Shown in pieces: positions 49,332 to 51,152 of a stretch of 64,000 nucleotides of DNA. Both the position numbers and the translations under genes were made by a program. A model generated the notes under the pieces. It searched no databases, had not been told where the DNA came from, and saw nothing but the letters and a program-made list of their open reading frames with translations. Source of the stretch: Rhodoferax sp. (lineage in GTDB: Bacteria; Pseudomonadota; Gammaproteobacteria; Burkholderiales; Burkholderiaceae_C). Each line of letters opens with the position of its first letter. The stretch's first letter is position 1. The DNA lies in assembly GCA_003133245.1 (NCBI GenBank), contig PKWM01000048.1, positions 124,001 through 188,000 of the forward strand. The letters run 5' to 3'.

Positions 49332-51152
49332 ATGTCTTACCTCGTGCTCGCCCGCAAATACCGACCCCGCAATTTCTCCGAGTTGGTGGGACAGGATCAC
49401 GTGGTCAAGGCGCTCAGCAATGCGTTGACCACGCAGCGGCTGCACCACGCTTACCTGTTTACCGGTACGCGCGGCGTCGGCAAGACCACGATCTCACGCA
49501 TTCTGGCCAAATCGCTGAACTGCCAGGGCGCCGACGGCACCGGCTCCATCACCGCAACGCCGTGCGGCGTCTGCCCGGCTTGCAGTGACATTGATGCCGG
49601 CCGCTTTGTCGATTACACCGAGCTTGACGCCGCCTCTAATCGGGGCGTGGACGAAGTGCAGGCGCTGCTGGAGCAGGCGGTCTATAAGCCGGTGCAGGGG
49701 CGCTTCAAGGTGTTCATGATTGACGAAGTTCACATGCTCACCGGCCACGCCTTTAACGCCATGCTCAAGACGCTCGAAGAGCCGCCGGCGTATCTGAAAT
49801 TTGTGCTGGCCACCACCGATCCGCAAAAAGTGCCTGCCACCGTGCTGTCGCGCTGCCTACAGTTCAACTTGCGCCCGATGGCACCCGAGACCATTGCCGA
49901 GCACCTGCAAAAGGTGTTGCAAGTCGAAAACGTGGTGGCGGATGCCGCCTCGCTGCGCTTGCTGGCGAGAGCGGCGCGCGGTTCCATGCGTGACGCCTTG
50001 AGTCTGGCCGACCAGGCCATCTCTTTTGGTGCCGGTCAACTTGAAGAAGCCGGTGTGCGCCAAATGCTCGGCAGTGTGGACCGCTCCTACGTGTTTCGTC
50101 TGATTGATGCGCTGGCACAGGGTGACGGCAAAACGGTAGTCGAAACGTCTGAGTCTTTGCGCCTGCACGGCCTGAGCGCTGCCTCCACCCTGGAAGAGAT
50201 GAGTGCGGTGTTGCAACGCATGGCGGTGTTGCAGGCGGTGCCCAACGCTGGCACTGAGGTCGATGAGACCGACCCGGATGCCGCCGACGTGGCCCGCCTA
50301 GCCAGACTGATGCCGACAGACGAGACGCAACTGCTCTACAGCATCTGCTTGTACGGTCGCGCCGAGCTCGGGCTGGCTCCCGATGAATACGCTGCGCTCA
50401 CCATGGTTTTATTGCGGTTGCTGGCTTTCAAGCCGAGCACCGGCACGGCCAGCGCGGCTCAAAAAAAAACTCTGACTGATGCCCCGGTAGTGCGGGCGGC
50501 TGCGCTAGCCCGACCGGTGCCCGCGTCTTCACCTGCGCCAATGGCACAGGCTTTGCCCACTGCGTTGGCGTCGGAGCCGGCTGCGTTGGCAGTATCGTCG
50601 CTGCCGCCCGGACGCCAGTTGCACGTCCATAGCGCAGCTTCAGCAAGCGATCAAGCCATGGGTGAAGCCGCACCCTCAGTGAACAAAATAGTCGCCATTC
50701 CAGTAAGGGTGCAGGCCGATTCGCGCACGGAGGCGCTGGCGGGTCAATCAGCGCCGCTATTGCTTCCCTCCGAGGAGGGCGAGTTCTGGCAACGCACGGT
50801 GCAGCAGCTGATCGCCAGCGAGGCCATCACCGCCATGGTGCGTGAGCTCGCCTTGCAGTCGCAGTTGATCGCACGCGACACCGATCAGTGGCTGCTGCGC
50901 ATCGAGCGTGAGTCGCTCAACCAGAGCGGCAACCGCGACCGCCTTGCAAACGCACTCCAGGGGGCCGGTCACGCTGTAAGTTTGGCGGTGGAGGTGGGCC
51001 GCGTGACAGACAGCCCGGCCAGGCGCAACGCAGCACAAGCAGCTGAGCGGCAGTTGGCCGCTGAAAAAATCATTTTTGAAGATCCGTTTGTGCAGACCAT
51101 GATGCGCGATTTTGCGGCGAAAATCGTTCCCGGCAGCATTAAACCAGGTTGA
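49332..51152 (+). CDS. dnaX: DNA polymerase III tau (and probably gamma) subunit
   Basis: DnaX is the clamp-loader ATPase and, as tau, the organiser of the replisome. The 606-residue tau has LARKYRPRNFSELVGQDHVV, Walker A GTRGVGKT (residues 45-52) and a zinc-binding cysteine cluster (NCQG, then PCGVCPACSD). Walker B is VFMIDEVHML and the sensor is ATTDPQKVPATVLSRC. Domains I-III end near residue 370. A run of nine A residues at codons 377-380 is followed at once by stops in both other frames and by a hairpin, so a gamma form of about 380 residues is likely (see findings). The C-terminal tau part is Ala/Pro-rich and then conserved. Confidence 0.97.
   Translation: MSYLVLARKYRPRNFSELVGQDHVVKALSNALTTQRLHHAYLFTGTRGVGKTTISRILAKSLNCQGADGTGSITATPCGVCPACSDIDAGRFVDYTELDAASNRGVDEVQALLEQAVYKPVQGRFKVFMIDEVHMLTGHAFNAMLKTLEEPPAYLKFVLATTDPQKVPATVLSRCLQFNLRPMAPETIAEHLQKVLQVENVVADAASLRLLARAARGSMRDALSLADQAISFGAGQLEEAGVRQMLGSVDRSYVFRLIDALAQGDGKTVVETSESLRLHGLSAASTLEEMSAVLQRMAVLQAVPNAGTEVDETDPDAADVARLARLMPTDETQLLYSICLYGRAELGLAPDEYAALTMVLLRLLAFKPSTGTASAAQKKTLTDAPVVRAAALARPVPASSPAPMAQALPTALASEPAALAVSSLPPGRQLHVHSAASASDQAMGEAAPSVNKIVAIPVRVQADSRTEALAGQSAPLLLPSEEGEFWQRTVQQLIASEAITAMVRELALQSQLIARDTDQWLLRIERESLNQSGNRDRLANALQGAGHAVSLAVEVGRVTDSPARRNAAQAAERQLAAEKIIFEDPFVQTMMRDFAAKIVPGSIKPG
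50461..50517 (+). promoter_or_regulatory. Likely frameshift/slippage signal in dnaX
   Basis: Nine A residues (50461-50469) form the heptamer A AAA AAA in the zero frame. The -1 frame stops at TGA 50477-50479 and the +1 frame at TGA 50473-50475. Downstream, 14 bases after the run, a nested stem forms: CCGGT (50484-50488) with ACCGG (50513-50517), and inside it CGGGC (50493-50497) with GCCCG (50508-50512). Confidence 0.7.

Follow-up and report, generated by a model that had tools for sequence, protein, structure and literature searches.

A conserved A9 run with paired off-frame stops in dnaX of Rhodoferax and its relatives: a predicted site of gamma production by transcriptional slippage

The dnaX gene described here lies in the window, the 64,000-nucleotide stretch of a Rhodoferax sp. 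genome that was analysed, which is part of contig C6 of a 2.94-Mb genome (52 contigs, 98.6% complete). The dnaX product matches the NCBIfam model dnaX_nterm with 403 bits, and Pfam places clamp-loader domains I–III and tau domain V in a single frame that contains a run of nine A residues (A9). Domain V of tau binds the alpha subunit of the polymerase. A zero-frame stop at the run, as in two-ORF dnaX genes, was not found; the zero frame extends to 51152. The features of the locus are as follows.

49332..51152, + strand: dnaX, stop codon (51150-51152) included; zero-frame product tau, 606 aa, 64,779 Da (ORF list, Pfam and NCBIfam matches, computed mass)
49332..50426, + strand: clamp-loader domains I–III, residues 1-365, retained in the predicted gamma (PF13177, PF22608 and PF12169, which ends at residue 365)
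50461..50469, + strand: A9, putative slippage run, codons 377-380, CAA AAA AAA ACT (sequence, conservation in relatives)
50473..50475, + strand: TGA of the +1 frame, reached on loss of one A or gain of two (sequence, selection test)
50477..50479, + strand: TGA of the -1 frame, reached on gain of one A or by a ribosomal -1 shift (sequence, selection test)
50484..50517, + strand: nested stem, 5+5 bp, probably not functional (no better than shuffles)
50781..51137, + strand: tau domain V, residues 484-602, missing from the predicted gamma (PF12170)

An earlier note, made from the letters of the window, had placed A9 at codons 377–380 just after domain III, read the two off-frame ends as NSD-stop (TGA at 50477) and L-stop (TGA at 50473), and proposed a gamma of 380–382 residues and about 41 kDa. 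The run and both ends were confirmed on translation, with domain III ending at residue 365 in Pfam, and the computed products agree in length and mass: loss of one A gives ...QKK-L-stop (380 aa, 41,013 Da) and gain of one A gives ...QKK-NSD-stop (382 aa, 41,216 Da). The window has a GC content of 0.58, and its only A or T run of at least nine bases is the A9 of dnaX. Genome-wide, A9/T9 was matched nine times, with overlaps, at eight places in the 2.94 Mb. Three of the other places (L112, L115 and L120, each at 1501–1509) lie within long ORFs of 663, 356 and 301 aa, respectively, and are possible further slippage sites; the first two ORFs seem to resemble FtsH and the start of FtsY.

Conservation of the run was followed in three samples. 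The first set comprised the window locus, 29 more loci of its genus and 80 named loci, many from Rhodoferax and others from Variovorax, Ramlibacter, Curvibacter, Caenimonas, Polaromonas, Comamonas and beta-proteobacteria, and gave 93 distinct dnaX genes. All 93 carry the run, as A9 in 92 and as A10 in one (L049); in the 418,534 bases that flank these loci there is one A or T run of at least nine. The order sample held 120 genomes from 51 families, of which 117 had a match and 98 of those 117 were fetched. The family sample held 110 genomes, one per genus, of which 104 had a match; besides the window's own, 88 of 103 were fetched in a first pass, and 82 distinct usable rows remained. In total, 281 distinct loci were compared, with identity measured over residues 1–366; two loci whose match was too short (L297 and L298) were dropped.

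The clamp-loader part is at least 75% identical in 157 distinct relatives, and a run of at least eight A's occupies the site in 154 of them: 150 A9 in one phase, three A10 (L049, L247 and L300) and one A8 (L260). Below 75% identity a run of at least eight is found in 10 of 124 loci, and in the one-per-genus family set in none of the 28 rows below this value, other lineages of the family being mostly without it; a locus fetched later, at 72.9% identity (L428), has A9. A tree of the N-terminal protein part contains a clade of 155 rows (support 72), of which 154 have the run, the exception being L234. The earlier note had suggested aligning relatives for conservation of the run and of both stops, and had held that relatives breaking the run with synonymous codons such as AAG would speak against slippage. 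The run was retained as described, and both stops are under selection, as shown below; AAG is found in the genus of L234, where it forms part of a full E. coli-type signal, so that the mechanism would have changed there and the site was not lost.

Over all rows, the tree requires 10 changes of run state, so runs also arose elsewhere in the order (e.g., L181 and L184, L209, L315). Other families of the order have A9–A11 runs of their own, close to where domain III ends or directly ahead of domain V (L209, L315, L165, L181, L184, L154, L186, L195/L434, L174 and L192), and these would represent separate gains of a recoding site. L209 and L315 have stops in both other frames, and L154 and L186 have a near -1 stop only. 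In two loci of one genus, L299 (genome G006) and L300 (genome G062), A10 is followed by an early zero-frame stop (387 and 385 codons, respectively) and domain V lies in another frame, which may be a reversed arrangement of the two-ORF kind or an error in sequencing the homopolymer.

The run is constrained at the level of nucleotides. All 150 A9 rows keep Lys-Lys, and nearly all keep Glu, Thr/Ser and Leu. In the genes of the A9 relatives AAA supplies 41% of Lys codons and GAA 42% of Glu codons, AAG and GAG being the commoner codons, such that GAA-AAA-AAA is expected for Glu-Lys-Lys in only 6.9% of cases from the genes' own usage. The ninth A opens a Thr or Ser codon. Where Ser supplies it, the codon is AGY in 22 of 22 rows, which were themselves chosen as A9, and elsewhere 62% of Ser codons are TCN. 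Only one of the 154 runs (L260) is A8; the ninth A is thus kept, though the heptamer A_AAA_AAA does not need it. Tests of synonymous-base constraint gave chi-square values of 212–219 at the Glu and Lys codons and 769 at the Thr/Ser codon, and the stretch in which third bases stray furthest from expectation begins with the codon preceding the run and extends through the third codon past the Lys pair. Judged from these sequences, the A9 run is under strong purifying selection at the nucleotide level.

The consensus around the run is GGCTG-A9-CTCTGA (50456–50475 in the window, together with the 150 A9 relatives). Of the 150 A9 relatives, 121 have G at base -5 and 98 have ACT straight after the two Lys codons, although elsewhere ACT makes up 6.9% of Thr codons; the Ala that precedes Glu is encoded by GCT in 71 of 109 cases.

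The off-frame stops were compared in the 150 A9 relatives with a null in which amino acids are kept and synonymous codons are redrawn from the same genes. The second codon of the +1 frame is a stop in 138 rows (null 101.8, sd 4.5). Within 11 codons, 147 rows have a -1 stop (null 37.5, sd 5.1) and 145 have stops in both off-frames (null 25.3, sd 4.5). With one row per genus (n = 49), the respective counts are 42, 48 and 47 against nulls of 29.6, 8.9 and 5.4 (sd 2.1 for the last), and among 141 control positions in these genes 0.7% have both stops. The +1 stop is formed by several routes: CTG before A (114 rows), CTA before A (16) or G (4), GTA before A (3) and TTA before A (1); elsewhere CTA makes up 1.4% of Leu codons. 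The high +1 null reflects that the amino acids alone often give a +1 stop. On this sequence test both off-frame stops are under selection, which bears out the earlier suggestion that stops lying so close together in both frames are a sign of it. Although one A9 in one genome could be due to chance, the conservation of the run and its paired stops show that this one is not.

Folding and upstream pairing were examined in the window and in the A9 relatives. The 5+5 bp nested stem named in the earlier note is present, with arms CCGGT (50484–50488) and ACCGG (50513–50517) and CGGGC (50493–50497) and GCCCG (50508–50512), but it was rejected as a stimulator: 76 of 200 dinucleotide shuffles of 50461–50525 are at least as stable, and only a weak excess is seen, among the 150 relatives. 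Folding windows of 40 nt, which detect the E. coli stem (z -2.2 to -2.6) where 60-nt windows missed it (z 0.05), show no stable stem downstream of the run at the locus (z -0.48 to +0.23, compared with -2.56 to -1.70 in E. coli, offsets 0–4). In the A9 relatives, 60-nt windows just past the run give a mean z of -0.53 (se 0.09) versus -0.10 to -0.26 farther on, and the first 40-nt windows -0.31 to -0.50 versus -0.03 to -0.36 farther downstream. This small excess is real and may reflect a weak stimulator. A folding window containing the run gave z -0.89, probably because the run itself affects the shuffles. A Shine-Dalgarno-like sequence upstream (pairing of -6 kcal/mol or stronger) is not enriched: it occurs in 21 of 156 A9 genes and in 14.7% of control windows.

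A candidate hairpin at 50429–50460 (-13.9 kcal/mol) ends one base before the A run, and the last 32 nt before the run have a z of -2.01. A hairpin set against the run is an idea that comes from work on stem-loop-aided slippage. As a feature of the clade it was rejected, the mean of -0.49 at this place being hardly below -0.45 at -45 and -0.47 at -6.

Relatives that carry the E. coli heptamer provide a natural contrast. L234, the exception in the A9 clade, carries A_AAA_AAG. Its genus was sampled in 31 genomes, and the 27 that matched gave 25 genes with A_AAA_AAG (L234 among them), one without an A run (L417) and one that was too short and was dropped (L418). In a second genus (L284 and four relatives), A_AAA_AAG is present in 5 of 5. 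The state was assigned on the heptamer alone. A Shine-Dalgarno-like element (-6 kcal/mol or stronger) is found in 30 of 30 A_AAA_AAG genes and in 12% of control windows, a measure slightly favoured by the choice of the strongest Shine-Dalgarno pairing wherever several heptamers were in phase; the element lies about 15 nt upstream in these genera and about 10 in E. coli. The -1 stop falls within 5 codons in 28 of 30 (null 6.4) and within 11 codons in all 30 (null 8.2). In contrast, a +1 stop in the first three codons occurs in 1 of 30 A_AAA_AAG genes (null 0.5) versus 144 of 154 A9 genes (null 106.8), two of 156 A9 rows being unusable for the null in this comparison. The stop set therefore tracks the type of shift site, as transcriptional and ribosomal mechanisms predict. 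Counting against a clean split, +1 stops within 11 codons occur in 8 of the 30, above the null of 3.0 (sd 1.3). A strong downstream stem was not seen in these 30 genes (mean z -0.34 to -0.56). The E. coli dnaX control has A_AAA_AAG and pairing of -6.9 kcal/mol upstream, and its stops fall at codon 2 of the -1 frame and codon 12 of the +1 frame.

Because the 30 A_AAA_AAG genes come from two genera, they represent few independent events. In the tree, the 25-row genus (support 98) lies inside the A9 rows and joins 142 of them with support 88 (63 at the deeper node), and its Shine-Dalgarno element and spacer are like those of the second genus; the two may owe their signal to shared ancestry, convergence or transfer. 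Two further candidates for ribosomal frameshifting in dnaX are L206, a locus of another family in which A_AAA_AAG has upstream pairing of -11.5 kcal/mol and a -1 stop nearby, and L285, where upstream pairing of -10.9 goes with C_CCA_AAA and the second codon of the -1 frame is a stop.

The number of tRNA-Lys species was considered as a switch between the two mechanisms. The genome of the window gave 42 tRNA matches, including tRNA-Lys CTT and TTT. In relatives, one 76-base gene served as the query and up to 30 loci were considered, such that a missing anticodon is not proof of absence. Among the matches listed, the A9 genomes G210, G211 and G279 have CTT and TTT and the A9 genome G287 has TTT only; the A_AAA_AAG genomes G236 and G132 have TTT only and G306 has both. 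G287 and G306 thus break the rule, and the idea was set aside as suggestive only.

Judged by sequence comparison, this is almost certainly a site of programmed recoding, and the recoding is probably transcriptional slippage. RNA polymerase would slip on A9 during transcription of dnaX, giving mRNAs with fewer or more than nine A's. Those with nine A's, or nine plus a multiple of three, would be translated into tau, and the others would reach a stop within a few codons in either off-frame and yield gamma, comprising domains I–III without domain V. In the Rhodoferax/Variovorax/Ramlibacter group the run and both stops are under nucleotide-level selection, and programmed transcriptional slippage is the probable source of gamma there; from the sequences we infer the slippage, its efficiency, and the stability and use of gamma. 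Several observations count against slippage: the small folding excess just past the run, the +1 stops within 11 codons in some A_AAA_AAG genes, the genomes that break the tRNA-Lys rule, a conservation of GGCTG and ACT that exceeds what stops or amino acids explain, and the part of the +1 stop signal that amino acids contribute.

The earlier note had held that the layout suits either polymerase or ribosome. It is true that A_AAA_AAA is in phase, and ribosomal -1 frameshifting on this heptamer could make gamma from a uniform mRNA in which only the -1 stop matters; the selected -1 stops, the weak folding excess after the run in relatives and the ribosomal-type signal in some members of the same family agree with this explanation. 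Yet it leaves the +1 stop unexplained, as well as the ninth A; the more slippery A_AAA_AAG, so described in PMC5009743, is not used; and a Shine-Dalgarno-like sequence lacks enrichment, with pairing of -2.7 kcal/mol in the window compared with -6.9 in E. coli. Bases added to or dropped from the mRNA by a slipping polymerase need a stop in both frames, and a ribosomal -1 shift only the -1 stop, so that the paired stops, together with the ninth A, the missing Shine-Dalgarno enrichment and the contrast with the A_AAA_AAG genes, favour the transcriptional mechanism and make the ribosomal one improbable. Retention of the run for the protein, as a Glu-Lys-Lys-Thr-Leu linker, or for another use of the DNA, with no gamma made, would fit the near invariance of these residues but not the constraint on synonymous bases in genes where AAG and GAG are commoner, nor does it predict off-frame stops; we regard it as very improbable. 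Hardly credible at all is production of gamma from tau by proteolysis, with an incidental A run: such a route is described for Caulobacter crescentus in PMC5009743, but it would account neither for the run nor for the selection on off-frame stops.

If polymerase slippage is the correct explanation, selection on paired off-frame stops would offer a test, from sequence, for protein-truncating slippage, a class that PMC1088944 describes as hard to predict or to judge by comparison. Because a large clade keeps the signature almost without exception, gamma would be common there and under selection; a 2012 review (PMC3290774) states that most bacteria except enterobacteria and T. thermophilus have no dnaX frameshift signature and may lack gamma. 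It is fairly likely that slippage is a standing route to gamma in the whole proteobacterial group, and that dnaX genes of the same family have switched between polymerase slippage and ribosomal frameshifting, each with accessory signals of its own: A9 with paired stops and no Shine-Dalgarno element, or A_AAA_AAG with a Shine-Dalgarno element and only the -1 stop. Close relatives with A9 and with A_AAA_AAG would then be a natural experiment on the replacement of transcriptional by ribosomal recoding, or the reverse, and on the purpose of gamma. Slippage of this type is already known; what stands out is the breadth of A9 retention and the ribosomal alternative in relatives. No report of dnaX frameshifting in Burkholderiales or Comamonadaceae was found in the open-licence literature, and an earlier mention is possible.

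Similar to the dnaX of the window, the two-ORF dnaX genes collected with GeneTack have poly-A, mostly A10, at the gamma/tau boundary, and transcriptional slippage was proposed for them (PMC3711429); in those genes an early stop closes the zero frame and tau depends on recoding, whereas in the window the zero frame gives tau. L299 and L300 resemble the two-ORF type and may be sequencing errors. The E. coli dnaX is the same gene with the same kind of product and a -1 stop just past the site (TGA at 50477 in the window), and combines A_AAA_AAG with a Shine-Dalgarno-like element and a stem. The window, where A_AAA_AAG in phase was not found and A_AAA_AAA followed by A stands instead, has A9, neither stimulator and an extra +1 stop. 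Neisseria is among the genera listed with the E. coli-type dnaX signal in PMC3711429, and in two genera of the window's own family the heptamer of E. coli occurs together with a Shine-Dalgarno-like element.

The closest counterpart is the dnaX of T. thermophilus, in which A9 is a site of transcriptional slippage (PMC1088944, PMC5009743). In both, the sense strand carries nine A's, the zero frame encodes tau, each of the other frames has a stop nearby, and the genome has two tRNA-Lys species, a number that may bear on the use of polymerase slippage by T. thermophilus, according to PMC5009743. Slippage was measured in T. thermophilus, where it accounts for about half of the product, and we infer it here from sequence. 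Other differences are the position of A9 in the window, at 62% of the gene and 12 residues past domain III, and its conservation over a large proteobacterial clade.
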